A DNA stretch of 64,000 nt from assembly GCF_018390635.1 (NCBI RefSeq), contig NZ_JAHBGE010000018.1, forward strand, positions 1 through 64,000. Direction: 5' to 3'. Source of the DNA: Ancylobacter lacus (GTDB taxonomy: Bacteria > Pseudomonadota > Alphaproteobacteria > Rhizobiales > Xanthobacteraceae). Of this stretch, positions 31,602 through 53,623 are shown one piece after another. The stretch's first letter is position 1. Each line of letters starts with the position of its first letter. The position numbers were made by a program, and so were the translations under genes. Below the pieces are notes generated by a model, which saw only the letters and a list, made by a program, of their open reading frames with translations, had not been told where the DNA came from and ran no database searches.

Positions 31602-32417
31602 ATGAACAGCACCGGCCGCGGCGTCCGCTTCCTCTATGCCTGCCTCATCGCGGCGTTCCTGCTGCTGATGTACCTGCCGATGGTGACCATCGCGCTGGCC
31701 TCGTTCTCGCGCACCCGCTACTTCCGCTTCCCCATCCCGGCGTGGTCGACCAACTGGTACGCCGAGGTGTTCGAATCGCTGTCGATCCGCAACTTCTTCT
31801 GGACCTCGGTCATCATCGCGGTGCTGGTGGGGCTGATCTCGACGGCCCTGGCCTTCTTCGGCGCGCTGGCCTTTGCCCGCTACCGCTGGAAAGGCCGCAA
31901 GCTGTTCCAGAAGATCGTCATCCTGCCGATCCTGTTCCCCCAGGCGGTGCTGGGGCTGGCGCTGCTGCTGTGGTTCACCGCCATCGGCATCACCCCGAGC
32001 TGGCAGACCGCGGTGTTCGCCCATATCGTCTGGATCGCGCCGATCACCACGCTGATCATCGCCATCCAGGTCTATTCCTTCGATCCCGCCTGGGAGGAAG
32101 CCGCCTTCGACCTCGGCGCCACCCGCCTGCAGGTGCTGCGCGAGGTGACGCTGCCGATCCTGACGCCGGGGCTGATCGCCGGCTTCTTCTCGGCCTTCCT
32201 GCTGTCCTGGGCGAATTTCCCGCTCTCGATGTTCTCCAGCGGCGCCGACCAGACCATTCCCGGCTGGATCAGCGCCAAGGTGCAGGCGGGCTACACCCCG
32301 CAGGTGCCGGCGGTCGGCACGCTCACCATGCTGGCGGCGGCGGTCATCATGGGCGCCGGCTACGGGCTGGTCGTGCTGCAGGCCCGGCGTCGGGCGCGGG
32401 CCGAGGCGGCGGGCTGA
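31602..32417 (+). CDS. ABC transporter permease (PotC type)
   Basis: A 271-residue permease with six helices and the EAA-loop EAAFDLGATRLQVLREVTLPILTPG, nearly identical in its loop to the preceding permease. Last gene of the amine oxidase/importer unit; a strong terminator follows. Confidence 0.93.
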   Translation: MNSTGRGVRFLYACLIAAFLLLMYLPMVTIALASFSRTRYFRFPIPAWSTNWYAEVFESLSIRNFFWTSVIIAVLVGLISTALAFFGALAFARYRWKGRKLFQKIVILPILFPQAVLGLALLLWFTAIGITPSWQTAVFAHIVWIAPITTLIIAIQVYSFDPAWEEAAFDLGATRLQVLREVTLPILTPGLIAGFFSAFLLSWANFPLSMFSSGADQTIPGWISAKVQAGYTPQVPAVGTLTMLAAAVIMGAGYGLVVLQARRRARAEAAG

Positions 32418-33310: not shown

Positions 33311-34060
<750 letters not shown>

Positions 34061-35776: not shown

Positions 35777-36710
35777 CACTCTTGTACACCATGGTTTCCT
35801 CGCTGACATGCTCGCCGAGCAGGCCCGCGGGGCGGAACAGGAGGATGAGCACCAGCACCGAGAAGGCGAAGATGTCGCGATATTCGGTGCCGACCAGCCC
35901 GCCGGTGAGCACCGGCATCCAGGCGGTGCCGAAGGTTTCGATGATGCCGAGCAGGAAGCCGCCGAGCACCGCGCCGGGAATCGAGCCGATGCCGCCCAGG
36001 ATCGCGGCGGTGAACGCCTTCATCCCGATGACGAAGCCCATGGTGAAGCTGGCGACCCCGTAGAACGAGGAATAGAGGATGCCCGCCACCGCGCCGAGGC
36101 CGGGGCCGATGAAGAAGATGAGCGAGATCGCCATGTTGGGGTTGATGCCGACCAGCGAGGCGGTCTCGGCGTTCTCCGCCACGGCGCGGATGCGCACGCC
36201 GAGCGTGGTGCGGTTCACGAACAGCTCCAGCCCCACCATCAGCACCACCGCCACCGTGAAGATGGTGATCTGCTTGTAGGTGACGATGGCGCCGAACAGC
36301 TCCACCACCCCGTTCGGCAGGAAGGAGGGGTAGATCAGCGGCCGCCGGCCGGCGATCAGCATCACCGCGTTCTGGATCACCACCGCCATGCCGAGGGCGG
36401 AGAGCATCGGCGCGAGGCGCGAGGTGCCCCGCAGCGGGCGATAGGCCACGATCTCGACGCTGACGCCGATCAGCCCCACCGCGACGAAGGTGACGAGCCC
36501 CACCGCGACGCCGCCCAGCGGATGCCCCGCCACCCCCAGCGCGCCCGCCAGCCCCAGCCCGATGAAGGCGCCGGCGGTGAACAGCTCGCTATGGGCGAAG
36601 TTGATGAGGCGCAGCACGCCATAGACCATGGTGTAGCCCAGCGCGATCAGCGCGTAGATCGAGCCGACCGTGAGGGCGTTGATGGTCTGCTGGAGGATCA
36701 GGGAGCCCAT
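35769..36710 (-). CDS. livH: Branched-chain-amino-acid-type ABC transporter permease (LivH)
   Basis: A 313-residue permease with about eight helices; the N-terminal LQQTINALTVGSIYALIALGYTMVYGVLRL stretch and GMKAFTAAILGGIGSIPGAVLGG are LivH hallmarks. It follows livK after a 144-nt gap that contains a strong hairpin (36804-36842). Confidence 0.93.
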   Translation of the reverse strand: MGSLILQQTINALTVGSIYALIALGYTMVYGVLRLINFAHSELFTAGAFIGLGLAGALGVAGHPLGGVAVGLVTFVAVGLIGVSVEIVAYRPLRGTSRLAPMLSALGMAVVIQNAVMLIAGRRPLIYPSFLPNGVVELFGAIVTYKQITIFTVAVVLMVGLELFVNRTTLGVRIRAVAENAETASLVGINPNMAISLIFFIGPGLGAVAGILYSSFYGVASFTMGFVIGMKAFTAAILGGIGSIPGAVLGGFLLGIIETFGTAWMPVLTGGLVGTEYRDIFAFSVLVLILLFRPAGLLGEHVSEETMVYKSDF

Positions 36711-36854: not shown

Positions 36855-37958
36855 TCACTTCACCAGCGAGAACCCGTTGCCCTTGACGGCGTAGAGGAAG
36901 ATGAACGGCTTCTGCAGCTCGCCCGCCGGGGTGAAGGCGACATGGCCGACGATGCTGTCGAAGTCGCTCTTGGCGATGGCGTCGACGAGGGCGGCGCGCG
37001 ACAGGGCCGGGGCCTTCTTCATCGCGTCGATGACGATGGTCGCCTCGACGAAGCCATAGGCGGAATAGGGGCCGGGCTCCTCGCCGAAGGCGGCCTTGTA
37101 GTCGGCGGCGAAGGTCTTCAGCGCCGCGGAGGAGTCGTAGGGCGGCGCCTGGAAGGAGACCACCGCGCCCTCGGCGGCGGGGCCGGCGGCGGCGATGAAG
37201 TCCGGCGTGAAGGCGCTGTCGGCGGCGAAGAAGGTGGCGGTGATGCCAAGCTCGCGGGCCTGCTTCACGAACAGCCCGACCGCCGGCATGACGCCGCCGA
37301 AATAGATGACGTCCGGCTTCTCGGTGCGCAGGGTGGTGAGCAGCGCGCTGAAGTCGACATCGGTCGGGGTGATGCCGGAGAAGGAGGTCACCGTGCCGCC
37401 GCCCTTGGTGAAGGTGTCGCGGAACACTTCCGCCACGCCCTGGCCGAAGGCGGCCTTGTCGTGGACGATGGCGGCCTTCTTCGCCTTCAGCGTGCCGAGG
37501 GCGTATTCGGCCGGCGCGGCGCCCTGCGAGAGGTCGTTGGCGATGGGGCGGAACAGGTTCTTGTAGCCGGCCTTGGTGACCTTGGGGTTGGAGGAGTTGG
37601 TCACCTGCGGCAGGCCGCAGCGGTTATAGACATCGGACGAGGGAATGGTGACGCCCGAGTTGAAATTGGCGATGACCGCCAGGATGTCCTTGTTGTCGCA
37701 GAACTTCTGCGCGATCAGCGTGCCCTGCTTGGGATCGCCGCCGTCGTCCTCGCGCAGCAGCACCAGCTTCTGGCCCTGCACGCCGCCGGCGGCGTTGGCC
37801 TGACGCACGGCGAGCTCCATGCCGTTCTGCCAGGTGGTGCCGAACAGCGCCTCGGCGTTGGAGGTCGGGCCGGCGGTGCCGATGAGGATATCGGCCCGGG
37901 CGGCGCCGGCGAGAGCGGTCGCGGCGAGCGCGGCGAGCAGGATGGTTTTCAGCTTCAT
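36855..37958 (-). CDS. livK: Liv-type ABC transporter substrate-binding protein
   Basis: A 367-residue periplasmic type-I binding protein (Leu/Ile/Val-binding family). Signal peptide MKLKTILLAALAATALAGAARA, then DILIGTAGPTSN as first strand, the NSGVTIPSSDVY and TNSSNPKVT ligand-loop motifs and PDVIYFGG in lobe two. The family also binds amides, aromatic acids and hydroxyproline-like ligands; the gene context argues for the substrate of the divergent catabolic operon. ATG 37958 chosen at the signal peptide. Confidence 0.92.
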   Translation of the reverse strand: MKLKTILLAALAATALAGAARADILIGTAGPTSNAEALFGTTWQNGMELAVRQANAAGGVQGQKLVLLREDDGGDPKQGTLIAQKFCDNKDILAVIANFNSGVTIPSSDVYNRCGLPQVTNSSNPKVTKAGYKNLFRPIANDLSQGAAPAEYALGTLKAKKAAIVHDKAAFGQGVAEVFRDTFTKGGGTVTSFSGITPTDVDFSALLTTLRTEKPDVIYFGGVMPAVGLFVKQARELGITATFFAADSAFTPDFIAAAGPAAEGAVVSFQAPPYDSSAALKTFAADYKAAFGEEPGPYSAYGFVEATIVIDAMKKAPALSRAALVDAIAKSDFDSIVGHVAFTPAGELQKPFIFLYAVKGNGFSLVK

Positions 37959-38039
37959 GTCAGTCCCCACTGTTGGCCGGCCCTGTTGTCGCGGGCCTCT
38001 TGACGGTCGGGGTGCCAACACGGGCCGGCATCCCGGAAT

Positions 38040-38714
38040 TCAGGCGATGTCGCGCTCCACCGCCCGGCGGCTGTCGGCCAGCGAGGCGACGAGGTTGCGG
38101 GAGACCCGCCGGATATGGGCGCGCAGCGTGTCGACGCCGCGCCGCGTGTCGCGAAGCCGGGCGAAGGCCACCAGCGCCTGGTGGTCCGCCTGCTCGCGCT
38201 CGACATCCTTGGCCACCGCGATCTGCAGGTTGACGTAGCGGTTGGCGTTGTCGTGCACCGTGCGCAGCAGCCTGAGCGCGATGCGGTTTCCGCTCGGGCG
38301 GTACAGCGCCTCGTGGAAGCGCCAGTTCAGCTCGCCCCAGTTCTCGACGTTCCCGATGCGGATCGACTCGTCGATGATCGCCTCGGCACGGCTGAAATCC
38401 TCTTCGGTCAGGCACGGAATGGCGGCCTCGAACAGCCAGGTTTCCAGCCGCTCGCGGATTTCGAACAGTTCCTCGATCTCGGCGAGCGACAGCGAGGAGA
38501 CCACCGTCCCCTTGTGCAGCTCGGAGACCACCAGGCCTTCCGCCTCGAGCTGGCGGATGGCCTCGCGCAGCGGAACCCGGGAGACGCCCAGCTCGCCGGC
38601 CAGCTTTTCCTGCCGGAGCGGCGCGCCCTCGGCGAGCTGCCCCGTCAGGATCTGCCGCCGAAGTTCGGTGACGATCTGGTCCGTCAGCGACTGGCGTCCG
38701 ATTTTGGCACTCAT
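38040..38714 (-). CDS. GntR/FCD-family transcriptional regulator of the catabolic island
   Basis: A 224-residue GntR regulator: winged helix at about residues 8-72 (ILTGQLAEGAPLRQEKLAGELGVSRVPLREAIRQLEAEGLV) and an FCD effector domain with the metal-binding pattern of Asp/His residues (about 90-215). FCD regulators usually respond to organic or amino acids. It lies between livK (81 nt downstream) and the divergent catabolic operon, with two identical palindromes in its upstream region, so it most likely represses both arms and itself. ATG at 38714 is preferred to the GTG at 38750, which lies beyond the first palindrome. Confidence 0.9.
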   Translation of the reverse strand: MSAKIGRQSLTDQIVTELRRQILTGQLAEGAPLRQEKLAGELGVSRVPLREAIRQLEAEGLVVSELHKGTVVSSLSLAEIEELFEIRERLETWLFEAAIPCLTEEDFSRAEAIIDESIRIGNVENWGELNWRFHEALYRPSGNRIALRLLRTVHDNANRYVNLQIAVAKDVEREQADHQALVAFARLRDTRRGVDTLRAHIRRVSRNLVASLADSRRAVERDIA

Positions 38715-38730
38715 TCCGGCAGCTCCATAT

Positions 38731-38745
38731 TGAATACGATATTCA
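38731..38745. promoter_or_regulatory. GntR-type operator 1
   Basis: TGAATA-CGA-TATTCA, a perfect 6-bp-arm palindrome 16 nt upstream of the GntR start codon. An identical palindrome with a different spacer occurs 108 bp away (38839-38853). Confidence 0.75.
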
Positions 38746-38838
38746 GTCACGATGAACGAACAAGCTCAAATGATGAGCATTATTCCGCGATATATGCCTA
38801 ATTTTTGGACTTTCTCACCGACCATCTCCCGCATACGC

Positions 38839-38914: not shown

Positions 38915-39439
38915 ATGGCCGAGCAGGCAAGCGATGCCTCCCCCTATGGCGAGGTGCTGGTGAGGCAGCCGGGCGAGGCGACCAGCTATTGGCAGCCCGT
39001 GCCGGCCAATGGCCAGATCGAGGTCATCTTCGCCCCTCACGTCGTCCCCATGGAGCATCCCATCGGCTTCGGCACCCAGACCGTCCCGCCCGGCGGCTAT
39101 GTGCGCGAACACGCCCACGACCGCAACGAGGAGGTGATCTTCGTCGTGCGTGGCAAGGGCCGTGCCGTCATCGACGGCGTCAACCACGTGATGCAGCCGG
39201 GCTCGGCCTTCTTCGTCGGCAAGAACCGCCGCCACATGTTCATCAACGAGGGCAGCGAGGACATCGTCTGGACCTGGCTCATCGTCCCGAACGGGCTGGA
39301 GGACTTCTTCCGCCTCATCGGCCGCGAGCGGGTGGCCGGCGAGCCGGCGCCCGAGCCCTTCCCCCGCCCGGAGAACGTGCTGGAGATCGAGCGCAGCACC
39401 GTCTTCGCCGCCCAGCCCGCCGACCAGCGCCAGCCCTGA
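38915..39439 (+). CDS. Cupin-domain protein
   Basis: A 174-residue single-domain cupin. Motif 1 is PPGGYVREHAHDRNEEVIFVVRG (metal ligands His and Glu) and motif 2 is PGSAFFVGKNRRHMF. Small cupins act as isomerases, dioxygenases, decarboxylases or ligand sensors; the function here is not known. First gene of the rightward catabolic operon, directly behind operator 2. Confidence 0.85.
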   Translation: MAEQASDASPYGEVLVRQPGEATSYWQPVPANGQIEVIFAPHVVPMEHPIGFGTQTVPPGGYVREHAHDRNEEVIFVVRGKGRAVIDGVNHVMQPGSAFFVGKNRRHMFINEGSEDIVWTWLIVPNGLEDFFRLIGRERVAGEPAPEPFPRPENVLEIERSTVFAAQPADQRQP

Positions 39440-39464: not shown

Positions 39465-39538
39465 CGCCCCGCCGCCATCGGCTTCCGCTGCCCGGCCGCC
39501 GGCCCCCGGCCGTGCGGCGCCCCATTTTCGAGGATTCC

Positions 39539-40291
39539 ATGCGTCTGAAGGACAAGGTCGCGATCATCACCGGCGCCGCCGCCGGCATTGGCGAGGCCGC
39601 CGCGCAGATTTTCGTCCGCGAGGGGGCCCGCGTCCTCCTCGCCGACCGCAACGGCCCGGGCGTCGCCCGCGTCGCCGAACGGCTCGGCCCGCAGGCCGCC
39701 GCCATCGAGGTCGACGTCGCCCGCAGCGCCGACGTCGCCCGCATGGTGGCGGAGGCGCAGCGCCGCTTCGGCCGGCTCGACGTGCTGGTGAACAATGCCG
39801 GCTACGGCATTCCCGGCACCGTCGTCACCACCGAGGAGGACGCCTGGGACGCGCTCATGGCGGTGAACCTCAAGGGCGTGTTCCTCTGCTGCAAGCACGC
39901 CATCCCGGTGATGGCGGCGCAGGGCGGCGGCACCATCGTGAACACCGCCTCCAACGTCGCCACCGTCGGCATCTTCGACCGCGCCGCCTATGTCGCCTCG
40001 AAGGGCGGCGTCGCCGCGCTGACCAAGGCGATGGCGCTCGACCACGCCGCCGAGCGCATCCGCGTCAACTGCGTCGCCCCGGGCGTCACCTGGTCCACCT
40101 ATTTCGACAAGATGGTGGCCGAGCATCCCGACCCCGAGGATTTCAAGGCCAGGCTCAAGGCGCGCGCGCCGGTGAACCGCTGGGCCGAGCCGATCGAGAT
40201 CGCCAACGCCATATTGTGGCTGGCCTCGGACGAGGCCTCCTTCGCCACCGGCGCCATGTTCACCGTCGACGGCGGCATGTCGGCGTGGTGA
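39539..40291 (+). CDS. Short-chain dehydrogenase/reductase
   Basis: A 250-residue classical SDR: TGAAAGIG nucleotide motif, D at the end of strand two (LLADRNG) suggesting NAD(H), NNAGYG, NTASNVAT with the catalytic Ser, and the AAYVASKGG Tyr-Lys pair; C-terminal FTVDGGMSAW. Start ATG 39539 follows GAGGA. The next gene begins just after or overlapping its stop. Confidence 0.92.
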   Translation: MRLKDKVAIITGAAAGIGEAAAQIFVREGARVLLADRNGPGVARVAERLGPQAAAIEVDVARSADVARMVAEAQRRFGRLDVLVNNAGYGIPGTVVTTEEDAWDALMAVNLKGVFLCCKHAIPVMAAQGGGTIVNTASNVATVGIFDRAAYVASKGGVAALTKAMALDHAAERIRVNCVAPGVTWSTYFDKMVAEHPDPEDFKARLKARAPVNRWAEPIEIANAILWLASDEASFATGAMFTVDGGMSAW

Positions 40292-40311: not shown

Positions 40312-41121
40312 ATGCGCGCGACGACCCCCCCGCATGTCGGGCTGATCGGCTTCGGCGCGATCGGCCGCGACCTCAATGCGCGCCTCGCCCGCGGCTCCGG
40401 TTCCCTCCCCGCCCTGCGCCAGACCCTGCTGCTGCGCCACCCCCCGGCCGAGCCACCGGTGTCCGGCACCGCGGTGGTGGAAAGCCTCGATGCCCTGCTC
40501 GACGCCCGCCCCGCGCTGGTGGTGGAAGCGGCCGGGCAGGCGGCGGTGGCGGAGCTCGGCCCGCCGCTGCTGGCGGCCGGCGTCGACCTGCTGGTTGCCT
40601 CCTCCGGCGCGCTCGGCGAGCCGGCCCTGCTCGCCCGGCTGCTGGCGGCGGCGGAGCGGGGCGGCGCCCGGCTGGTCGTGCCCTCCGGTGCGATCGGCGG
40701 ACTGGACTATCTCGCCGCGCTGCAGGGCGAGCCCGACGCCCGCATCCTCTACACCTCGCGCAAGCCGGTGGCGGCGTGGCGGGACGAGCTGGCCGCCGCC
40801 GGTCACGACCCCGCCCGGCTCGAACGGCCGGTCACGCTGTTCGAGGGCCGCGCCACGGAGGCCGCCCGGCTCTACCCGCGCAATCTCAATGCCGGGCTCA
40901 CCGTCGCCCTCGCCGCCGGGGCGGAGCGGACCACGGTGCGGGTGGTGGCCGATCCCGCCTGCACCGAGAACACCCACGAGATCGAGGTGGAAAGCCCGCT
41001 CGGCCGCGCCGGGCTGCGGTTCGCCAACACCCCCTCCCCCGCCAACCCCAAGACCTCGGCCCTCACCGCCGCCAGCCTCGCCGCGGCGGTGCGGCGCCAC
41101 TTCGCCACCCTCGCGCTCTGA
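40312..41121 (+). CDS. Aspartate dehydrogenase family protein
   Basis: A 269-residue enzyme matching L-aspartate dehydrogenase (NadX-like): Rossmann GLIGFGAIGRDL, central SGAIGGLDYLAAL, the YTSRKP substrate motif, catalytic H222 in ENTHEIEVESP, and the terminal NPKTSALTAASL signature. The family oxidises L-aspartate to iminoaspartate with NAD(P). Here no nadA/nadC is near, so a catabolic role on aspartate or a substituted aspartate is more likely than NAD synthesis. ATG 40312 used; a GTG at 40288 overlapping the SDR stop (GTGA) is the alternative. Confidence 0.85.
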   Translation: MRATTPPHVGLIGFGAIGRDLNARLARGSGSLPALRQTLLLRHPPAEPPVSGTAVVESLDALLDARPALVVEAAGQAAVAELGPPLLAAGVDLLVASSGALGEPALLARLLAAAERGGARLVVPSGAIGGLDYLAALQGEPDARILYTSRKPVAAWRDELAAAGHDPARLERPVTLFEGRATEAARLYPRNLNAGLTVALAAGAERTTVRVVADPACTENTHEIEVESPLGRAGLRFANTPSPANPKTSALTAASLAAAVRRHFATLAL

Positions 41122-41135
41122 AGGAACGCCGCCCC

Positions 41136-42362
41136 ATGTCCCGCATCCTCGTCATCGGCGCCGGCATCGTCGGGCTGTGCTGCGCCAACGCGCTGCGGGC
41201 GGAGGGACGCGAGGTCATGGTGCTGGACCGCGACCCGGCGGGCGACAAATGCTCCTTCGGCAACGCGGCGGGCATCGGCGTCACCGAGATCATCCCCGCC
41301 TCGGTGCCGGGGCTGGCGTGGAAGGTGCCGGGCTGGCTGCGCGACCCGCTGGGGCCGCTGTCGCTGCGCCCCGCTTATCTGCCGAAGCTGGCGCCCTGGC
41401 TGCTGCGCTTCCTGCGCCACGGCACCTGGAGCGAGGTGGAGCGCATCGCCGCCGCGCTCGCCACCCTGTCCGGCCGGACCTACAAGGACCTGCTGCCGCT
41501 GCTGGACGAGATCGGCCTTGGCGGCGATCTCCGCCCGGTCGGCGCGCTGTGGGCCTATGAGACCGCGGCTGGCTTTGCCGCCGATGCCCGCTTCCGCGCC
41601 ATCCGGCGGCAGCACGGGCTGGTCTGCGAGGAGATCAGCGGGGCCGAGGCCCGCGCCCTTGAACCGGCGCTGGGCGAAGCGGTGCGCCACGCCATGTTCA
41701 CCCCGCAATGGTCGCATGTCGCCGACCCCCGCCGCATCGTCGACCGGCTCCGCCGGCATGTCGAACAGCGCGGCGTCACGGTCGCCCGCGGCGAGGCCAC
41801 CGCGATCTTCGGCAACGAACTGCTGCTCGCCGACGGGCGCCGGCTCGACTTCTGCCATCTGGTGGTGGCGGGCGGGGCGTGGTCCGGCCGGCTGGCGGGC
41901 AGCCTCGGCGACCGGGTGCTGATCGAGAGCGAACGCGGCTACAACACCACCCTGCCCACCCCCGGCGTCACGCTGTCCCACGAGGTCATCTTCGCCGAGC
42001 GCGCCTTCGTCGCCACCCCGATCGACGCCGGGCTGCGCATTGGCGGGGCGGCGGAATTCGCCGGCCTCGACGCCCCGCCCAACTACGCCCGCTCCGACGC
42101 GCTGGCGCAGCTCGCGACGCGCTACCTGCCGGGGCTGAACACCGCCGGCGGCACCCGCTGGATGGGCCATCGCCCCACCACCGCGGATTCGCTGCCGGTG
42201 ATCGGCACCTCGCCGCGGCGGCCGGATGTCGTCTACGCCTTCGGCCACGGCCACACCGGGCTCACCTTCGGCCCCACCACCGGGCGGCTCGTCGCCGAGC
42301 TGGTCGCCGGCCGGCCGACCTCGGTGGATGTCGCCCCCTTCAGCATCGCCCGCTTCCAGTAG
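41136..42362 (+). CDS. FAD-dependent D-amino-acid/hydroxyproline dehydrogenase (DadA-like)
   Basis: A 408-residue DAO-family flavoprotein: ILVIGAGIVGLCCANAL FAD motif, second strand ending VLDRDP, CSFGNAAGIG loop, and C-terminal RWMGHRPTTADSLPVIGTSP with YAFGHGHTGLTFGPTTG. Close in type to DadA and to the cis-4-hydroxy-D-proline dehydrogenase that follows hydroxyproline epimerase in other bacteria. It is immediately upstream of a proline-racemase-family epimerase, supporting oxidation of the epimerised D-amino acid to an imine. Membrane electron acceptor likely. Start follows AAGGAA. Confidence 0.9.
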   Translation: MSRILVIGAGIVGLCCANALRAEGREVMVLDRDPAGDKCSFGNAAGIGVTEIIPASVPGLAWKVPGWLRDPLGPLSLRPAYLPKLAPWLLRFLRHGTWSEVERIAAALATLSGRTYKDLLPLLDEIGLGGDLRPVGALWAYETAAGFAADARFRAIRRQHGLVCEEISGAEARALEPALGEAVRHAMFTPQWSHVADPRRIVDRLRRHVEQRGVTVARGEATAIFGNELLLADGRRLDFCHLVVAGGAWSGRLAGSLGDRVLIESERGYNTTLPTPGVTLSHEVIFAERAFVATPIDAGLRIGGAAEFAGLDAPPNYARSDALAQLATRYLPGLNTAGGTRWMGHRPTTADSLPVIGTSPRRPDVVYAFGHGHTGLTFGPTTGRLVAELVAGRPTSVDVAPFSIARFQ

Positions 42363-42372
42363 GAACCCACCG

Positions 42373-43374
42373 ATGAACCCGCACACCTTCCTCTGCATCG
42401 ACGCCCACACCTGCGGAAACCCGGTGCGCGTGGTGGCCGGCGGCGCGCCGCTGCTGCCCAACGTGCCGATGGCGGAGAAGCGGCAGATCTTCCTGCGCGA
42501 CCACGACTGGGTCCGTCAGGCGCTGATGTTCGAGCCGCGCGGCCACGACGTCATGTCCGGCTCGATCCTCTATCCCCCCTCGCGGGAGGATTGCGAGCTG
42601 GGGGTGCTGTTCATCGAGGTCTCGGGCTGCCTGCCCATGTGCGGGCACGGCACCATCGGCACGGTGACAGTGGCGCTGGAACAGGGCTTCGTCGTGCCGC
42701 GGGTCGAGGGCCGGCTGGCGCTGGAGGTGCCGGCCGGGCGGGTCGAGGTGGAATACCGCCGCAATGGCCGCTTCGTCGACGAGGTGCGGCTCTACAACAT
42801 CGCGTCCTATCTCCACGCCGAGGGGGTGAAGGTGACGGTGCCCGGCCTCGGCGAGCTGGTGGTGGATGTCGCCTACGGCGGCAATTTCTACGCCATCGTC
42901 GAGCCACAGCCGAACTTCGCCGGGCTCGACAGCCTGTCCGCCGCCGACATATTGCGGCTGTCCCCGGTGGTGCGGGAGGCGGTGCAGGCCGCCGTCGCCC
43001 CGGTGCACCCCGAGGATGCCCGCATCCACGGCGTCAGCCATGTGATGTGGGCGGACGGGCCGAAGCACCCGGAGGCGGATGCCCGCAACGCGGTGTTCTA
43101 CGGCGCCAAGGGCATCGACCGCTCGCCCTGCGGCACCGGCACCTCCGCCCGCATGGCCCAGCGCGTCGCCAAGGGGCTGCTGCAGGCGGGCGACAGCTTC
43201 GTGCATGAGAGCGTCATCGGCACGCTGTTCCACGGCCGGGTCGAGAGCGCGGCCAGCGTCGGCGGGCGCCCTGCCATCCGCCCCAGCATCGGCGGCTGGG
43301 CCCGCATCTATGGCCACAACACCATCACCGTGGACGAGCGCGACCCGCTCGCCTTCGGCTTCCAGCTCGCGTGA
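42373..43374 (+). CDS. 4-hydroxyproline epimerase (proline racemase family, Cys/Cys)
   Basis: A 333-residue PLP-independent epimerase. Both catalytic cysteines are present: C90 in PMCGHGTIG and C253 in SPCGTGTSA. The Cys/Cys pair and the CGHGTIG motif are the pattern of hydroxyproline 2-epimerases and proline racemases; the flanking DadA-like dehydrogenase and DapA-like lyase favour trans-4-hydroxy-L-proline to cis-4-hydroxy-D-proline. A paralogue with Ser in the first position is at 46456. Confidence 0.88.
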   Translation: MNPHTFLCIDAHTCGNPVRVVAGGAPLLPNVPMAEKRQIFLRDHDWVRQALMFEPRGHDVMSGSILYPPSREDCELGVLFIEVSGCLPMCGHGTIGTVTVALEQGFVVPRVEGRLALEVPAGRVEVEYRRNGRFVDEVRLYNIASYLHAEGVKVTVPGLGELVVDVAYGGNFYAIVEPQPNFAGLDSLSAADILRLSPVVREAVQAAVAPVHPEDARIHGVSHVMWADGPKHPEADARNAVFYGAKGIDRSPCGTGTSARMAQRVAKGLLQAGDSFVHESVIGTLFHGRVESAASVGGRPAIRPSIGGWARIYGHNTITVDERDPLAFGFQLA

Positions 43375-43381
43375 GGCGGCG

Positions 43382-43696
43382 ATGATCCTCGAGGAGCGCG
43401 ACTACCACATCGTCCCCGGCCGGATGGCCGATTTCCTCGACGCCTACGAGACGCTCGGGCTCGACATCCAGAAGCACTTCCTCGGGACGTTTCTCGGCCA
43501 TTTCGTCAGCGAGATCGGCGAACTCAACCATGTCGTGGCACTCTGGCGCTACGAGAGCATGGCCGAGCGCGAGTCCCGCCGCGCGGCCATGCTCGCGCAC
43601 GAGCCCTGGCAGACCTATCTCGCCGCGATCCGGGGCATGATCCAGAGCCAGCAGACGCGCATCCTGGCGCCGACGCGGCTTTCGCCGATGCGGTGA
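43382..43696 (+). CDS. NIPSNAP family protein
   Basis: A 104-residue ferredoxin-like fold protein of the NIPSNAP family: IxERDYHIVPGRMADFLDAYE at the start and GELNHVVALWRYESMAERESRRAAM, with the conserved Asn-His and Trp-Tyr. Function of the family is unclear; members occur in catabolic operons for aromatic and amino-acid derivatives. It sits 7 nt after the epimerase gene and 37 nt before the mutase-like gene. Confidence 0.85.
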   Translation: MILEERDYHIVPGRMADFLDAYETLGLDIQKHFLGTFLGHFVSEIGELNHVVALWRYESMAERESRRAAMLAHEPWQTYLAAIRGMIQSQQTRILAPTRLSPMR

Positions 43697-43733: not shown

Positions 43734-45518
43734 ATGAGCCTGCCGCCCCTGCCGCCCCGCGACCAGCTCGTGCCGCCCCGGCTGCCCCCGGGGGCGGAAC
43801 TGCTGGCGGCGGGCCGGGCGCTGGCGCGGGACTGGCAGGTGGGGCGCAACGCCTTTCTCGACGCCGCCGGCGTCGCCTGCGAGGCGGACTACAAGCGCCG
43901 CGCCGCGGGCGAAGGCCGCATCATGCAGCACGCCCATATCGGGTTCCGCTCGGTGGAGCGCACGCTCGGCGCCATCGCCGAGGTGCACGGCACCTGCGCC
44001 GCCCGGGGCGTCACGGTCGACCGCTTCGGCATCACGCTCGACTGGTCGATGGGCTATCCCCCGGCCGAACGCCGCGCCCGCCCGCGCGGCACCGGCATCG
44101 TGCTGGAGGGGCCGGAGGATTTCGCCCGCATCACCAACGCCGCGCCGGCCGCCGCCCATTTCGGCGACTTCATGATGGGGCTGCCGGGCGCGCTGGAGAA
44201 TGTGAAGGCGGCGCTGGCGGCGGGGGCCACCGCGCTCGGCAATCTCGGCCAGTATTTCACCTTCCGCCTGCCGGACTGGGACGACGACGTCGCCACCACC
44301 GAGGCCACCGTCACCGCGCTGGGGCTGATCGCCGCCCAGCCGGTGGAGGTGCTGGTGCATTCCAATCTCGACGACGGCTTCGCCGGGCTGTTCGCCGACA
44401 TGAGCTCGGCGCTCGGCATGGTGCTGGTGGAGAAATACATCGTCGAGACGCTGATCGGCGCCCGCGCCTCCCACTGCTTCGGCCACCATTTCACCGCCCC
44501 GCTGGTGCGCCTCGCCTTCCACCGCGCATTGGCCAGCGTCAGCGAGGGCAGCGTCGGCACCATGATCTTCGGCAACACGGTGAGCTACAAATCCGTGCCG
44601 GCCGGCAATTTCGCCAGCCTCGCCTCCTATCTCCAGGCCGACATCTGGGCGCTCGGGCGCACCCACACCGGCCACGCCGTCAACCCGGTGCCGGTGACGG
44701 AGAACGAGCGCATCCCCGATACCGACGAGATCATCGACGCCCAGACCTTCGCCCACCGCCTCGCCGAGCATGCCCGCGCCGCCTCCGGGCTGGTCAACCA
44801 CGCCGAGGTCGACGCGCTGGCGGACCGGCTGGTGGAAGGCGGGCGCCGCTTCGCCGCCCGCACGCTGGCGGGGCTGGCCGAGATCGGCATCGACACCGGC
44901 GACGCCGCCCAGCTCATGCTGGCGCTGCGCCGGCTCGGGCCGAAGCGGATGGAGGCCGCCTTCGGCGCCGGCGCGCCCGATCCGCAGGCCTGGGGCGGGC
45001 GGCGCGCCCTCGCCCTCGCCGAATGGGTGGAGGAGCTGGAGCACGAGGCCCGCCGCTGGGCCGGGGCCATCCCGCCCGCCGACGCCGCCCGGCTGAAGGC
45101 GGCCGGCCTCACCGCCATCGTCGCCTCCAGCGACGTCCACGAGCACGGCAAGAACCTCGTGGAGCGAACCCTGCGCCATCTCGGCGTCACCCCGCTCGAC
45201 GGCGGCACCTCGGTGGATGCCGACGACCTCGCCGCGGCGGCGGTGGCGGCGGGCGCCGACGTCATCGCCATCTCGACCTATAACGGCATCGCCCTGCGCT
45301 ATGCCCGGGAGGTGACCGAGGCGCTGGCCCGGCTCGGCGCCGCCATCCCGGTCTGCATCGGCGGGCGGCTCAACCAGATCCCCGAGGACTCCAACTCAGG
45401 GTTGCCGGTGGACGTCACCCGCGAGATCGCCGCCCTCGGGGTGACGCCCTGCGCCACGCCGGCTGCACTCATCCTCCACCTCACCGCACTCATCGAACCG
45501 ACACAGGAAACGCCATGA
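43734..45518 (+). CDS. Fused B12-dependent mutase-like protein (glutamate-mutase E/S-like)
   Basis: A 594-residue protein with two parts. Residues about 1-440 look like a TIM-barrel catalytic subunit: GNLGQYFTF, the HCFGHHFTAP stretch and LGRTHTGHAVNPVPVTENER resemble the arrangement of methylaspartate mutase chain E, though only distantly by eye. Residues about 455-575 are a B12-binding domain: D467-V-H469-x2-G472 (base-off lower-ligand motif DxHxxG), ISTYNG and CIGGRL, all as in glutamate mutase chain S. In clostridia these are separate proteins; here they are fused in the order E-S. Stop overlaps the next start by ATGA. Substrate unknown: glutamate or a substituted dicarboxylic amino acid is a reasonable guess. 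Confidence 0.75.
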   Translation: MSLPPLPPRDQLVPPRLPPGAELLAAGRALARDWQVGRNAFLDAAGVACEADYKRRAAGEGRIMQHAHIGFRSVERTLGAIAEVHGTCAARGVTVDRFGITLDWSMGYPPAERRARPRGTGIVLEGPEDFARITNAAPAAAHFGDFMMGLPGALENVKAALAAGATALGNLGQYFTFRLPDWDDDVATTEATVTALGLIAAQPVEVLVHSNLDDGFAGLFADMSSALGMVLVEKYIVETLIGARASHCFGHHFTAPLVRLAFHRALASVSEGSVGTMIFGNTVSYKSVPAGNFASLASYLQADIWALGRTHTGHAVNPVPVTENERIPDTDEIIDAQTFAHRLAEHARAASGLVNHAEVDALADRLVEGGRRFAARTLAGLAEIGIDTGDAAQLMLALRRLGPKRMEAAFGAGAPDPQAWGGRRALALAEWVEELEHEARRWAGAIPPADAARLKAAGLTAIVASSDVHEHGKNLVERTLRHLGVTPLDGGTSVDADDLAAAAVAAGADVIAISTYNGIALRYAREVTEALARLGAAIPVCIGGRLNQIPEDSNSGLPVDVTREIAALGVTPCATPAALILHLTALIEPTQETP

Positions 45519-46429
45519 CCCGCTGGACCGGAGTCTTCCCCGCCGTCACCACCAAGCTGCGCGAGGACCAGAGCCTCGACCTCGCCGCCACCCAGGCCAG
45601 CCTCGACCGGCTGATCGCCAGCGGCGTCTCGGGCGTCATCGTGCTGCCCATGCTGGGCGAGAACGCCTCGCTGAAGGCGAGCGAGCGCGAGGCCGTGATC
45701 CGCGCCGCCAGGGAGGTGGTGGCCGGCCGGGTGCCACTGCTCTCCGGCCTCGCCCATGTCGCCACCGCCGACGCGCTGGAGGCGGCGCGGCACTATGAAA
45801 GCCTTGGCGCGGAAGGGCTTATGGCCTTCCCCTCGATCGCCTACAAGAGCGACCCGCGCGAGACCGCGGCGTGGTACCGCGCGCTCGGCACCGGCTGCGG
45901 CCTGCCGATCATGATCTACAACAACCCCATCGCCTATGGCGTCGACGTCACCCCGGCGATCCTGAACGAGCTGGCGGATGTGCCGGGCATCGTCTGCATC
46001 AAGGAGGAAACCGGCGACATCCGCCGCGTCACCGACATCTACAACGCCTGCGGCGACCGTTTCTCGGTGTTCTGCGGCGTCGACGACCTGCTGCTGGAAA
46101 GCGTGGCGCTGGGCGTCACCGGCTGGGTGTCGGGCATGACCAACGCCTGGCCGGTCGAGTGCGTGGAGCTGTTCAACCTCTGCGCCGCCGGAAATTTCGC
46201 AGCCGCACGAGAGCTTTACCGCATCCTCACCCCCGCCTTCCACCTCGATACCGACGTCAAGCTGGTGCAGTACATCAAGATCGCGGAGAGCGTGACCTAT
46301 GGCGCGCCGGAATGGGTCCGCGCCCCGCGCCTGCCGCTGGTCGGGGAGGAGCGCGCCCGCGTGCTCGCCGTCATCGAGGCGACGGTGGCCGCGCTGGCCG
46401 GCCGTCCCGCCATCCGCTCCGCCGCCTGA
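45515..46429 (+). CDS. DapA-family lyase (pyrroline-4-hydroxy-2-carboxylate deaminase-like)
   Basis: A 304-residue (beta/alpha)8 Schiff-base enzyme of the dihydrodipicolinate synthase family. The Schiff-base lysine is K163 in GIVCIKEETGD, and Y134-like IYNNP and the GENASL loop are present. TGVFPAVTTKL at the N-terminus is typical of the subgroup next to hydroxyproline epimerases, whose members deaminate 1-pyrroline-4-hydroxy-2-carboxylate to 2-oxoglutarate semialdehyde. An aldolase role on another oxoacid is possible given the B12 mutase neighbour with which it overlaps. Confidence 0.82.
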   Translation: MTRWTGVFPAVTTKLREDQSLDLAATQASLDRLIASGVSGVIVLPMLGENASLKASEREAVIRAAREVVAGRVPLLSGLAHVATADALEAARHYESLGAEGLMAFPSIAYKSDPRETAAWYRALGTGCGLPIMIYNNPIAYGVDVTPAILNELADVPGIVCIKEETGDIRRVTDIYNACGDRFSVFCGVDDLLLESVALGVTGWVSGMTNAWPVECVELFNLCAAGNFAAARELYRILTPAFHLDTDVKLVQYIKIAESVTYGAPEWVRAPRLPLVGEERARVLAVIEATVAALAGRPAIRSAA

Positions 46430-46455: not shown

Positions 46456-47505
46456 ATGCGCTTCAGCCGCATGATCACCGTCGTCGGCGCCCATGCGGCC
46501 GGCGAACTCAACGAGGTCATCACCGGGGGCGTGCGCGACGTCCCCGGCCGCACCATGTTCGAGAAAATGCAATATGTTCAGGCACATCGCGACGAGCTGC
46601 GGCAGTTCCTGCTGAACGAGCCGCGCGGCCGCGTCACCCAGTGCGTGAACCTCGTGCTGCCGCCGACGACGCCGGAGGCCGATGCCGGCTTCGTCATCAT
46701 CGAGTCCGACTATTACGTCCCGATGAGCGGTACCAACACCATCTGCACCGTCACCGCCCTGCTCGAAACCGGCATGATCCCGATGCAGGAGCCGGTCACC
46801 GAGCTGACGCTCGAGGCACCGGCGGGCCTCGTGAAGGTGCGCGCCGAATGCCGCGACGGCAAATGCGTGAACGTGACCTTCGACAATGTCGCCGCCTTCG
46901 TCTTCGCCCTCGACGCCCCGGTGGACGTGCCCGGGCTCGGCCGCATCACCGTCGACGTCGCCTATGGCGGCATGATCTACTGCCTCGTCGACGCCGCCGC
47001 GCTGGGCTATCGGCTGGAGCTGAAGGAGGCCGGCGAGCTCGTCGAGGTCGGCGAGCGGATCAAGAAGGCCGCCGCGGAGCAGATCCCCTGCGTGCACCCG
47101 GAAAATCCCGAGATCCACACCATCAACCAGACCCTGTTCGCCGGGCCGCTGGAGCGGACTGCGGACGGGCTGACGGCGAAGAACACCGTCATCGTCTCGC
47201 CGGGCCGGCACGACCGCTCGCCCTGCGGCACCGGCACCTGCGCCCGCATGGCGGTGCTGCACGCCCGTGGCCAGCTTGCCCTCGGCGAGCGCTTCCTGCA
47301 CCGCTCGCTGATCGGCACCGAGTTCACCGGCCGGCTGCGCGGCACCGCGGAGGTAAAGCGATTGCCCGGCGTTCTACCCACCATTACCGGCCCGGCCTGG
47401 ATCACCGCTTTCCATCAATATGTGCTTGACCCGACTGACCCTTTTCCGCTCGGATTCAGGCTCGGCGACACCTGGCCGGGCTACACCGGAGAGCAGCCGA
47501 CCTGA
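46456..47505 (+). CDS. Proline racemase family protein, Ser/Cys type
   Basis: A 349-residue paralogue of the epimerase at 42373. The first catalytic position is S91 (PMSGTNTICT) instead of Cys, and the second is C257 (SPCGTGTCA). Ser/Cys members exist in the family and include hydroxyproline epimerases of different regiospecificity; Cys/Thr would indicate trans-3-hydroxyproline dehydratase, which this is not. It may act on another stereoisomer or on a 3-hydroxy analogue. Follows the DapA-like gene by 26 nt. Confidence 0.85.
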   Translation: MRFSRMITVVGAHAAGELNEVITGGVRDVPGRTMFEKMQYVQAHRDELRQFLLNEPRGRVTQCVNLVLPPTTPEADAGFVIIESDYYVPMSGTNTICTVTALLETGMIPMQEPVTELTLEAPAGLVKVRAECRDGKCVNVTFDNVAAFVFALDAPVDVPGLGRITVDVAYGGMIYCLVDAAALGYRLELKEAGELVEVGERIKKAAAEQIPCVHPENPEIHTINQTLFAGPLERTADGLTAKNTVIVSPGRHDRSPCGTGTCARMAVLHARGQLALGERFLHRSLIGTEFTGRLRGTAEVKRLPGVLPTITGPAWITAFHQYVLDPTDPFPLGFRLGDTWPGYTGEQPT

Positions 47506-47518
47506 CCGGAGGACTTCC

Positions 47519-48304
47519 ATGCCGCAACTCACCGCGTCGGACGGCTGCCGGGTCCATTACGACGTCGCCGGTTCGGGCGAGGCGGTGGTGCTGATTCCGG
47601 GGCTCGGCGGCGACGGCCGGTTCTGGGAACCGGTGGCGGCGCTGCTGGCCGACCGCTTCCGGCTGATCCTGGTGGATCATCGCGGCGCCGGGCGCAGCGA
47701 CCGCCCGCTCGGCCCCTACAGCCTCGCCCGGATCGCCCGGGACGTGACGGAAATCCTCGACGCGGAAGCGCTGCCGGCGGCGCATCTGGTCGGCCACTCC
47801 ACCGGCGGCGCCATCGTCCAGACGCTGGCGCTGGACGCCCCGGCCCGCGCCCGCCGCCTCGTCATCAGCGGAAGCTGGCCGGCGGCGGATGTTCGCTTCC
47901 GCCTGCTGTTCCAGGCCCGTCTCGCCCTGCTGGAGCAGAACCAGCCGGAGATCTACCAGGCCTTCACCCATGTGCTCGGCTACCCCGCGGAATGGCTGGC
48001 GACGCATGAACACGCCCTGGCCGGCGCGGTGGAGCGGGCGCGGGCCACGCTTTCGCCGCTCGACGTGACCGCCGCCCGCATCCGCATGCTGCTGGAGCAT
48101 GACCGGCTCGCCGACCTGCCGCGCATCGCCGCGCCGACGCTGGTGCTGGGCGCGCCCGACGACGAGATGGTGCCCTACAGCCATTCCGTGGAGATCGCCG
48201 CGCAGGTGCCGGGCGCGGTGCTGGAGCCCATTCCGGGCGGGCATTTCTTTCCCCGCGTCGACCCCGCCCGCTTCGCGGCGCTGGTCGGCGATTTTCTCGG
48301 CTGA
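47519..48304 (+). CDS. Alpha/beta-fold hydrolase
   Basis: A 261-residue hydrolase: oxyanion-hole VLIPGLGGDGRFW, nucleophile elbow GHSTGG with S94, acid in APDDEMVP and His in GGHFFPR. It resembles 3-oxoadipate enol-lactonase and RutD-type aminoacrylate hydrolases, so lactone, ester or amide cleavage is possible. Start follows CCGGAGGAC. Last gene of the catabolic operon, ended by a hairpin. Confidence 0.88.
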   Translation: MPQLTASDGCRVHYDVAGSGEAVVLIPGLGGDGRFWEPVAALLADRFRLILVDHRGAGRSDRPLGPYSLARIARDVTEILDAEALPAAHLVGHSTGGAIVQTLALDAPARARRLVISGSWPAADVRFRLLFQARLALLEQNQPEIYQAFTHVLGYPAEWLATHEHALAGAVERARATLSPLDVTAARIRMLLEHDRLADLPRIAAPTLVLGAPDDEMVPYSHSVEIAAQVPGAVLEPIPGGHFFPRVDPARFAALVGDFLG

Positions 48305-48411: not shown

Positions 48412-49608
48412 TCAGCGGCTGCGGGCGCTGGTCAGCCAGGCGATGAGCGGGTTGGTGGAGGAAGGCTGCTTCTGCAGGCTTTCCACGACGATGATCTGGT
48501 TCACCTCGCCCCGCTTATAGGCGGCGAGGAACCGCTCATACTCGCGGAACGAGATGCAGCCATTGGAGTCGCCGCGCGGGCCCAGCATGTAGGTGTGCGC
48601 CAGGATGCCGTCGCGGCCATACATCTTGCCATCGCCGATCGGCGTCATCCGCAGCGCCTCGACGCCGTGGAACAGCGACTCGCGCATGGTGAGCCTGTAG
48701 GTGTTCGGCGGCGTCGGCCCGCGCATCTTCACGTGCTTGTAGCGCGGATTGTCGAACATCTCGCCATAGCCGGAATGGGCTTCCAGCTTCGCCCCGCTCG
48801 GCATGTACACCACCCTGGCGGTGATGTCGTAGACGGCGTAGCGGTCGCCGCGGCCCGGCAGGGTCACCTGGTCGCCCACCTTCGGCTCGGCCGGCTCGTC
48901 ACCCAGCGGCTTGTCCGCCGGGTTGAGCGCCGCGACCTTCGGCTTGGTGTCGGGCGAAACCTCGGCGTCGTCGGCTTCGGCCGCGGCCTTCATGTCGGAG
49001 GGCCGGGGCGGCGGCGCCACCGCGAGCTGCTCGGCGGAATTGGGATCGTCCGGGGTGTCGTTGGTCGGCAGCCGGCCGGACACCAGCGGGTTCGACGCCG
49101 GCAGCGGCACGGTGCGCGCCGTCTTCACCACCGGCGAGGGCATGGGAACCGGAATGACCGCGAGTTCGTTGGTCTCGGCCGGGTTGCCTTCGACGGACAG
49201 CACGCCGACCGAAGGGTCCGCCTCGGCCGGCGCCGCGACCGGCCCCAGCGAGGCCATGACGAAGGGCGCGGCCGGACGCGCCGCGGTGCGCAGCGGAACG
49301 GTCTGCATCTCGGCGGCGAACAGCCAGCCGGACGGCAGGATAACGATGCCGGCAGCCCGGTAGTTGCCGATATCGGCAACGCTGGCGACACGCACCGGCG
49401 GCGGGGCGGGGGCTGGCGCCTCCACCTGCTCCACCGGGTGAGCCGACGGATTAGGGGCGGCGGCGAAGGACACCCGGCCGAAGGCCCAGGCACCCGCAAG
49501 GGTGGCGCCCGCCACCACCACGGCGCCGACAGCGCCGGCGGTGATGATTCGGGCGTAGGAGGGCCCTGCAGTGCCGGGGCGGGGCTCGGTCTTGGCCGTG
49601 TACGTCAT
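48412..49608 (-). CDS. DUF2778 (Tlde1-like L,D-transpeptidase) membrane-anchored protein
   Basis: A 398-residue protein: short cytoplasmic N-terminus, one membrane segment (ITAGAVGAVVVAGATLAGAWAF, about 20-42), a long Pro/Ala-rich linker (about 50-235) and a C-terminal DUF2778 domain. The L,D-transpeptidase-like catalytic residues are visible in HTYMLGPRGDSNGCISFREY (His, Ser, Cys). Salmonella Tlde1, a type VI effector, shares this domain, but in rhizobia such proteins are chromosomal, anchored and without effector context, so envelope remodelling is more likely. The ATG at 49608 is used; a GTG three codons upstream is possible. Confidence 0.82.
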   Translation of the reverse strand: MTYTAKTEPRPGTAGPSYARIITAGAVGAVVVAGATLAGAWAFGRVSFAAAPNPSAHPVEQVEAPAPAPPPVRVASVADIGNYRAAGIVILPSGWLFAAEMQTVPLRTAARPAAPFVMASLGPVAAPAEADPSVGVLSVEGNPAETNELAVIPVPMPSPVVKTARTVPLPASNPLVSGRLPTNDTPDDPNSAEQLAVAPPPRPSDMKAAAEADDAEVSPDTKPKVAALNPADKPLGDEPAEPKVGDQVTLPGRGDRYAVYDITARVVYMPSGAKLEAHSGYGEMFDNPRYKHVKMRGPTPPNTYRLTMRESLFHGVEALRMTPIGDGKMYGRDGILAHTYMLGPRGDSNGCISFREYERFLAAYKRGEVNQIIVVESLQKQPSSTNPLIAWLTSARSR

Positions 49609-50062
49609 GTTCCTCACAGTGCGACAAGATCACGAGCCGAGGCGCCCGTAGAGCTTACCAATCCTGCCCCCCTGGTCAAATCATGGACAACCGGCACGCG
49701 TGCGCCGGACATCCGGGATCGGCTGCCTGCCCGGCACGACCCCACCGCCCATCGGGCGATAGCTAAAATGCTATGCAAGTTTAGGCAACAAATCATTAAT
49801 GCCGCCCTCCTCCGGGGCAACCCCCGATCGACCTGCGCCAGGATGGACCTTTCCGAACGTCAGGGGGATGCGTTCAATCAAGCGGCGCTTGCGCGAGGGC
49901 CGCACCCTGAACGGCCGCACTGCGACATAATGCAGCGGCGCATGAGAGGTGATATGCAGAGGTAGCACACTTTAATGTCCCGCGCGCCGAATCCTGCAAC
50001 CCTACGCCGCAACATCGCTGTTTCAGCGGCGGTGGAGGTGTGGCCCCCGGTTTCACCCCGCT
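49609..50062. other. 454-bp intergenic region between divergent genes
   Basis: No convincing gene is seen; the short ORFs here lack ribosome-binding sites and similarity. The stretch 49755-49800 is clearly AT-richer than its surroundings and contains a 5-bp inverted repeat, ATAGC-TAAAAT-GCTAT (49759-49774). It probably holds promoters for the DUF2778 gene (leftward) and the diguanylate cyclase (rightward). Its lower GC suggests a regulatory rather than coding role. Confidence 0.5.
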
Positions 50063-52396: not shown

Positions 52397-53431
52397 TCAA
52401 CCCTGCCGGCGGCTGACGATGCGGGCGAGGATGTCGGCGCGGCCGGACGGGGAGCGGGCGCTGCGCAGTTCCTCGGCGAAGCCCGCCAGCACCCCCTCCT
52501 CGAAGGCCGAGACGACGGCGGCGTGGACATAGGAGGTGCGGCACACGCTCGGCGTGTTGGCCAGCGTCTCGGCGACCGAGGTCACCGCCGCCACCACCTG
52601 CGAGCGGCGCGCCCGCGCGCTGGCGGCGGGCGCCGCGGCCGCCAGCATCTCCAGCGCCCCGACCGAGGCGACCAGCGTGCGGAAGTCCTTCAGCGACAGC
52701 GGCCGCCCCGCCATCTGCCGCAGGAAGGCGTTGGCATCGCCCGCCCGCACCGGGTGTGCCCGGCCCTCGACGTCGCGGTACTGGAACAGCCGCGGGCCCG
52801 GAATCGTCATCAGCGCGCAGACCACCCGGACGAAGCGGGGCTCGCACACCTCCTTCACCACCTTCCGGCCGCCCTTGGCGCGGAACGACAGCGTCACCTT
52901 GCCCGGCTCCAGCCGCACATGCCGCTTGAGCAGTGTGGTCGCCCCGCGCGTGCCGTTGTCGCGGGCATAGGCATCGCTGCCCGCCCGCATCGCGGTCAGC
53001 GCCACCAGCTCCAGCACCGCGGCGAGGGCGAAGTCGCGGCCGCGCCCGGGGTCGGCCAGCCGGCGGCCGAGCCCACGCCGGATCGCCGGCAGGGCGCTCG
53101 CGAGGTCGCTCAGCCGGCGGGCCTTCAGCGCCTCGCGCACCCGGGTCCAGTCGGGGTGATAGCGGTATTGCAGCCGTCCCGCCGCGTCCTCCCCCACCGC
53201 CTGCAGGTGGGCCTGCGGGTCGGCGGCGTAGCGCACATTGCGGTAGGCCGGCGGCACCGCGAGGCCGCGCAGCCGCGCCAGCACCTCGGCATCGCGGATC
53301 GGCCGACCCTCGGCGTCGCGGAAGCTGAAGCCGGTGCCGGCACGGCGCCGGGTCAGGGTGAGATCGGCGGGCGAGACGAAGACCAACCCGTGCTTGCGGG
53401 CGAGGCTGCGGGTAAGGGAGCTTCTGCGCAT
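52397..53431 (-). CDS. DNA topoisomerase IB (poxvirus/eukaryotic type)
   Basis: A 344-residue bacterial type IB topoisomerase. The N-terminal domain has FVSPADLTLTRRRAGTGFSF and GLAVPPAYRNVRYAADPQAHLQAVG; the catalytic domain has ALTAMRAGSDAYARDNGTRGATTL (Arg), KxxRTLVAS-type KDFRTLVASVGAL and the active Tyr Y301 in TSYVHAAV. It relaxes supercoils by nicking one strand through a 3'-phosphotyrosine. Common in soil alphaproteobacteria, often near DNA-repair Ku/LigD genes, which are not seen here. ATG at 53431. Confidence 0.92.
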   Translation of the reverse strand: MRRSSLTRSLARKHGLVFVSPADLTLTRRRAGTGFSFRDAEGRPIRDAEVLARLRGLAVPPAYRNVRYAADPQAHLQAVGEDAAGRLQYRYHPDWTRVREALKARRLSDLASALPAIRRGLGRRLADPGRGRDFALAAVLELVALTAMRAGSDAYARDNGTRGATTLLKRHVRLEPGKVTLSFRAKGGRKVVKEVCEPRFVRVVCALMTIPGPRLFQYRDVEGRAHPVRAGDANAFLRQMAGRPLSLKDFRTLVASVGALEMLAAAAPAASARARRSQVVAAVTSVAETLANTPSVCRTSYVHAAVVSAFEEGVLAGFAEELRSARSPSGRADILARIVSRRQG

Positions 53432-53623
53432 GACTGAATCCGCCGGGCCGAGGTGGCCCGCACGGCCAACGTGCGATGGGCCGCCGCGTTCCGGCCGGCC
53501 CTGTTGCCGCCAAGGCACATCCCGTCCGCCAGCGCGGGGAGGTCCCTTTTTCCAAGGCAAGATCGCTTGTCGTTTCGACCGAATGCAGACGAGATAGCCG
53601 CCAGTAATGCGGGGGCATTCGGA

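Follow-up and report, generated by a model that had tools for sequence, protein, structure and literature searches.

To our knowledge, few kinds of AdoCbl carbon-skeleton mutase have been recognised, and with each of them a new type of reaction came to light. The one whose barrel lies closest in fold to that predicted for the protein described here is glutamate mutase (GlmE/GlmS; PF06368), in which a claw of R66, R149 and R100 together with E171, Y177 and Y181 surrounds the substrate, as described in PMC9545868, and for which PMC4682846 describes MutL as a reactivating chaperone. The hydroxyproline route has been described with steps catalysed by DAAO-, DHDPS- and aldehyde-dehydrogenase-family enzymes (PMC4113996, eLife 2014), and the words B12, cobalamin and mutase are absent from the main text of that article.

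The gene under study lies in an operon of the window, by which is meant the whole 64,000-nucleotide stretch of Ancylobacter lacus DNA analysed (71% G+C). The operon and its flanking transport genes comprise the following features.

33311-34060: ABC ATPase
34796-35809 and 35769-36710: ABC permeases
36855-38021, minus strand: branched-chain-amino-acid-type ABC binding protein
38040-38750, minus strand: divergent GntR/FCD regulator
38915-39439, plus strand: cupin (PF07883, E 1e-16)
39512-40291, plus strand: short-chain dehydrogenase (PF13561, E 3e-66)
40312-41121, plus strand: aspartate dehydrogenase (AspDH) homologue (PF01958, E 1.5e-28; PDB 2dc1, E 5e-31)
41136-42362, plus strand: FAD-dependent D-amino-acid oxidase/dehydrogenase family (DAO; PF01266; best NCBIfam model PRK00711, below cut-off)
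42373-43374, plus strand: 4-hydroxyproline epimerase, proline racemase family (NF010578, 569 bits against a cut-off of 376)
43388-43696, plus strand: NIPSNAP-domain protein, start codon uncertain (PF07978, E 2.6e-26)
43734-45518, plus strand: putative single-chain B12-dependent mutase of a seemingly undescribed family, 594 aa (open reading frame, PF02310, relatives, predicted fold)
43911-44723, plus strand: predicted TIM-barrel part of the mutase, residues 60-330, nearest fold glutamate mutase chain E (barrel-only model pLDDT 93.2; Foldseek 6h9e_B, E 1.4e-8)
45114-45389, plus strand: B12-binding domain, residues 461-552 (PF02310, E 4.1e-11, over cut-off)
45132-45149, plus strand: D467-V-H469-E-H-G472 cobalt-ligand motif (direct sequence reading)
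45515-46429, plus strand: DapA-family lyase/deaminase, ATGA-coupled to the mutase gene (PF00701, E 6e-50)
46456-47505, plus strand: second proline-racemase-family enzyme (PF05544, E 5e-127; six matching NCBIfam models, all below cut-off)
47519-48304, plus strand: alpha/beta hydrolase (PF00561, E 1.7e-30)

The best NCBIfam model for the second racemase homologue is trans-3-hydroxyproline dehydratase (427 against a cut-off of 550), and the AspDH homologue passes one NCBIfam subfamily cut-off (186 against 177) and falls short of the seven others listed. Aldehyde dehydrogenase, the usual last enzyme of hydroxyproline breakdown, was not found among the genes scanned in the window's cluster.

The frame at 43734-45518 on the plus strand has 594 open codons with a codon-position G+C of 0.74/0.52/0.94, the pattern of a real gene, and its stop codon overlaps the DapA-family start as ATGA at 45515-45518, as an earlier note on this DNA had read it. 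The motifs ISTYNG and CIGGRL lie where that note had placed them behind DxHxxG, and the B12 domain they mark is matched by PF02310 (E 4e-11), as it is in 43/43 aligned members of the family (Pfam). Each of 48 diverse members has D467, H469, G543 and G544; S514 is kept in 46 of them and G472 in 44, the remaining four having alanine. The family carries the DxHxxG...S...GG motif of the AdoCbl barrel mutases, although this motif is common to corrinoid methyltransferases as well. By analogy, His469 would be the cobalt ligand in a His-on/base-off arrangement. One copy of the mutase gene was found in its own genome, which also encodes a CobA-family adenosyltransferase that makes AdoCbl; Rfam at gathering score gave no match in the window, so no B12 riboswitch was found there.

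The structure models were built on alignments of the mutase family alone, and the AlphaFold2 model of the whole chain has a pLDDT of 90.6 and a pTM of 0.91. All seven PDB matches of the barrel-only model with E<=0.001 are AdoCbl-mutase barrels (Foldseek; next match E 1.1e-3), two of them glutamate mutase E in first place (6h9e_B and 1cb7_B), three lysine 5,6-aminomutase, one ornithine 4,5-aminomutase and one methylmalonyl-CoA mutase, and by this comparison the predicted fold is that of a mutase-type TIM barrel. As mutase barrels stand on top and neither methionine synthase nor any methyltransferase occurs among the 50 barrel-only matches listed, a mutase is favoured over a methyltransferase. 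The whole-chain model is matched by methylmalonyl-CoA mutase (E 8e-13), ornithine 4,5-aminomutase, glutamate mutase E and then methionine synthase, in that order, and the best superpositions, on methylmalonyl-CoA mutase, have an rmsd >10 Å, so that the position of one domain relative to the other is unconfirmed. At the sequence level PF06368 and PF01642 match 0/43 aligned members at E<=1, these members having scattered weak Pfam matches besides the B12 domain. Pfam scans of the single sequence and searches of NCBIfam and of PDB sequence profiles likewise returned the B12 domain and scattered weak matches only, and no barrel match of significance emerged when hhalign compared the family profile with those of MutE (from 3, then 10 sequences) and methylmalonyl-CoA mutase. 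The mutase identity is thus supported by the predicted fold. The earlier note had described a single chain in which a B12 domain follows a mutase-type barrel, which the model supports; the distant likeness of that barrel to glutamate mutase E is clear in the fold comparison with 6h9e_B and not significant in the profile comparisons, the proposed search of the N-terminal part against methylaspartate mutase E and other B12 barrels having matched none of the 43 members. Of the barrel facing a B12 domain that the note had envisaged, the barrel itself is modelled with confidence (pLDDT 93.2) and its arrangement with the domain is unconfirmed.

Methylmalonyl-CoA mutase, the top whole-chain match, has the same layout of a barrel followed by a B12 domain in one chain, but hhalign aligns the B12 domain only, PF01642 finds none of the 43 members and none of the genes scanned in the window's cluster is CoA-linked. 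Glutamate mutase provides the best barrel match and a B12 domain of the same type, and its MutL helper adjoins two members of a sister clade of the present family, whereas no profile match is found, the arginine claw is not visible and the gene partners are others. The domain order also differs, barrel-B12 in the present family against B12-barrel in the fused MutE proteins of loci L090, L091 and L126. In an alignment of ten MutE sequences (Peptoclostridium, Ensifer, Prevotella, Gemmobacter, Fusobacterium, Streptomyces, Methylobacter, Roseibium and two more genomes) R66, R100, R149, E171, Y177, Y181, K326 and E330 are each kept in at least nine of the ten rows (Peptoclostridium numbering); K326 and E330 we take to be positions with a possible role. 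The family barrel is placed on MutE weakly by hhalign (prob <1%), and the registers serve only as hints. One such non-significant register sets Arg66/100/149 of GlmE opposite H/Q68, I100 and H142, position 68 being H or Q in 26/27 rows, while E171 lies opposite G169, the residue that precedes the invariant N170, and Y177 faces F177. Another weak register sets E330 opposite E323, which is kept in 28/28. The arginine claw has likely been lost in the present family.

These comparisons bear on the proposal that the protein is a true glutamate mutase with fused E and S parts, converting glutamate to 3-methylaspartate ahead of oxidation by AspDH and cleavage by DapA. GlmE being the best barrel match, an aspartate-type dehydrogenase gene near 48/81 loci and MutL beside two sister-clade members speak for it, but with PF06368 matching 0/43 members and H/Q68, I100, H142 and G169 at the claw and E171 places of a non-significant register we regard it as improbable. 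The genome itself encodes neither MutE nor methylaspartate ammonia-lyase (the latter over cut-off in 2/26 genomes searched, one just at the cut-off) and has no MutL over cut-off, and real MutE proteins are found apart from the family in the same class, with true MutE operons in rhizobia. The glutamate-like substrate suggested in the earlier note is therefore not upheld, PF06368 being unmatched, the claw not visibly kept and the ammonia-lyase missing from the genome.

A glmS-mutL-mutE-methylaspartate ammonia-lyase operon is present on an Ensifer adhaerens plasmid (L128:3116-7744), and fusions in which an S-like domain precedes the MutE barrel occur in two Pseudomonadota genomes (L090:1477-3420 and L091:1480-3465) and on a Roseibium plasmid (L126:395-2389), the front domain being recognised by eye and PF06368 being matched for L090 and L091. 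The description of such mutases as mainly clostridial and haloarchaeal two-chain enzymes is to that extent incomplete.

Five histidines, H66, H142, H209, H251 and H314, lie in or next to strands of the predicted barrel and are kept in 43, 43, 43, 33 and 44 of the 48 diverse members (H66 falls in a gap in one row and H251 is Asn in 11). All five are lost in a sister clade of four members (L113, L157, L158 and L159), which are 31-33% identical to the window protein and still have D214, E323 and R326 together with the greater part of the B12 motif, three of the four having Ala for G472. The clade forms one group with support of 100/100 in a midpoint-rooted tree in which L159 has a long branch. 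The loss of the histidines as a whole set suggests a joint function, of which lining the pocket would be the simplest. MutL directly adjoins the sister-clade gene in two of the four members, L158 (PF13941, E 1.6e-135) and L157, where the two genes overlap as ATGA. Of 26 genomes searched, only these two (G721 and G791) have MutL over cut-off and five more have weak matches below it; none of the other 24, the window's own included, has MutL over cut-off, the genomes of L113 and L159 give no match, and MutL was not seen near genes of the main subfamily. Both MutL genomes belong to one family (f151), so the adjacency may represent one event. The front half of a long open reading frame in L157 has no Pfam match and seems spurious, the MutL gene lying in another frame.

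Gene neighbourhoods were compared in 81 loci, those of 80 relatives plus the short one of the window itself, and in a larger set of 111 loci with known repeats (L117=L027, L124=L004, L081=window). The AspDH homologue occurs in 48/81 loci, the cupin in 47/81 and the alpha/beta hydrolase in 41/81, and a P5CR-like reductase is encoded in 48/81. At >=45% identity the first and second racemases (ProR1 and ProR2) are each found in 16/81 loci, DAO in 15/81 and DapA in 14/81; rhizobial clusters have in their place an acetoin-dehydrogenase-like E1 with its E2, an enzyme resembling carnitine dehydrogenase, and further proteins. As only a minority of loci include the racemases, DAO and DapA, hydroxyproline was rejected as the general substrate, and the hydroxyproline pathway, which the earlier note had taken as context, is not supported as a general one. 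Its dehydrogenase partner fares better, as a P5CR-like and/or AspDH gene lies within the fetched stretch of 92/111 loci; the neighbourhood survey it proposed thus yields a frequent dehydrogenase partner and hydroxyproline genes that are local. The 111 loci divide into 40 with a P5CR-like gene and without AspDH, 27 with AspDH alone, 25 with both and 19 with neither, the last including some short stretches and the window's own short locus, whose AspDH is cut off. The P5CR-like gene is adjacent, within 400 bases of the mutase gene, in 35 loci, and in L115, L118 and L120-L123 the two genes are same-strand neighbours that lack the remainder of the cluster, and on inspection by eye the genes flanking them in L120-L122 resemble housekeeping ones. 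The one reductase tested, that of L039, scores below every curated P5CR cut-off (133.6 against 254 bits at best), and 52/65 P5CR-like reductases carry the motif PGG[IL]T, where ProC has PGGTT; from this score and motif, the substrate of the reductase may be other than P5C. The window's own genome has only distant homologues of the P5CR-like reductase (31% and 30%), and AspDH would appear to replace it in the window operon.

Other neighbours of the mutase gene include a homologue of PhyH-type Fe/2-oxoglutarate dioxygenases, found in 11/111 loci (L036, L046, L050, L066, L068, L070, L071, L161, L163, L166 and L169), dimethylglycine-dehydrogenase-like genes at L168:39-1892 and L171:4159-6618, a Rieske gene at L114:6740-8116 and arginase-family genes at L079:2438-3430 and L069:7188-8153. 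The dimethylglycine-dehydrogenase-like, Rieske and arginase genes are possible hints of a methylated or guanidino substrate. No one named substrate (betaine, opine, ornithine-derived or hydroxyproline-derived) was retained, the neighbours pointing several ways.

A corrinoid methyltransferase of MetH- or MtaBC-like kind, with a methyl-donor barrel that methylates the B12 domain and acts on N-methyl compounds, would accommodate the dimethylglycine-dehydrogenase-like and Rieske genes of these three loci. Methionine synthase shares the B12 motif and B12-domain sequence with the family, the domain scoring about equally with MetH and with mutases, and it appears among the whole-chain Foldseek matches from rank 23. 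However, a barrel of methyltransferase kind is unmatched among the 50 barrel-only matches listed and the MetH cap domain was not detected by Pfam in the 43 members, which leaves this proposal with a low probability. Clusters for ornithine fermentation have a dehydrogenase beside the mutase, and an aminomutase that uses PLP, as ornithine 4,5- and lysine 5,6-aminomutase do, would fit that adjacency, the barrel fold (barrel-only matches 3-6), the arginase-family genes and an ornithine-cyclodeaminase-family gene <6 kb from the L113 copy, but it is the least probable alternative, as a clear PLP-lysine candidate is absent, the sole strongly kept lysine of the B12 domain, K473 (44/48), stands directly behind DxHxxG, a place at which PLP attachment would not be expected, and no second subunit was recognised among the scanned neighbours.

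We consider it likely that the protein is a single-chain AdoCbl-dependent radical mutase of its own family, related in fold to the superfamily of glutamate mutase, the aminomutases and methylmalonyl-CoA mutase. The chain would be laid out as a substrate barrel, a helical linker and a B12 domain of Rossmann fold, in which His469 would bind the cofactor base-off. By analogy with other barrel mutases, binding of the substrate would close the barrel and trigger Co-C homolysis, upon which the 5'-deoxyadenosyl radical would abstract hydrogen from the substrate, a small polar compound in a pocket that H66, H142, H209, H251 and H314 probably line, a neighbouring group would undergo a 1,2-shift and the hydrogen would be returned. 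The partner dehydrogenase, AspDH here and the P5CR-like enzyme in many relatives, would handle the product or the precursor by removing or setting the amine as an imine, and downstream cleavage would depend on lineage, with DapA in the window and the acetoin-dehydrogenase-like E1/E2 in rhizobia. The AdoCbl chemistry, the pocket role of the histidines and the order of steps are inferred, and an amino or imino acid, though not glutamate, is the most likely substrate. The family, which has a barrel sequence, a probable pocket and partners of its own, seems undescribed; searches of open-access PMC brought up no description, although one may exist there or elsewhere. On balance, and with less assurance than for the mutase itself, we favour an undescribed AdoCbl-mutase family whose pocket is lined by histidines and which comprises two or more subfamilies that differ in specificity. 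In alphaproteobacteria it would rearrange an amino or imino acid that is not glutamate and, with its dedicated P5CR-like or AspDH partner, form a widespread catabolic module inserted into different pathways, the hydroxyproline-type one of the window included. Were this so, a B12-dependent step of nitrogen-compound catabolism would be missing from current pathway maps, and the defined partner genes make the module testable.

The family was traced within Pseudomonadota genomes and plasmid records, where its occurrence is patchy among soil, plant-associated and marine alphaproteobacteria. A scan that reaches close relatives only found 89 relatives in genome contigs, and the 80 kept are alphaproteobacteria by record title, with one titled "Proteobacteria bacterium". 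Identity to the window protein is 49-85% for 42 aligned relatives, the nearest named one being from Ancylobacter crimeensis (84%). A full-length copy is present in 21 of 101 genomes, the window's own and those of relatives, and in 14/30 within the genus. A phylum-wide sample has the family in 4/398 genomes, the three besides the window's own being of the same order or class, and a class-wide sample has it in 17/385 (L113 query, E<=1e-20). Separate-chain forms were not found among the 398 phylum genomes, the four with the family each having one frame of 611-651 aa. Nine of 72,556 plasmid records match, on rhizobial plasmids, one of them partially, and near-full-length members in annotated plasmid records are named "cobalamin-dependent protein" or "hypothetical protein" only. 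A local amplification of the module is seen at L160:2285-11278 (genome G763, contig 20), where a tandem array of five family genes, one of which is divided between two frames, is followed by two P5CR-like genes, and one copy has three of the five histidines changed.

Elsewhere in the window there are a copper amine oxidase gene (26065-28053), further ABC transporter genes (29481-30593 and 31602-32417) and a gene for a Tlde1-domain protein (48412-49617, minus strand; PF10908). An autotransporter of 1633 aa is encoded at 53453-58354, and the 1912-aa open frame at 52397-58135 on the strand opposite to it is probably a high-G+C shadow.
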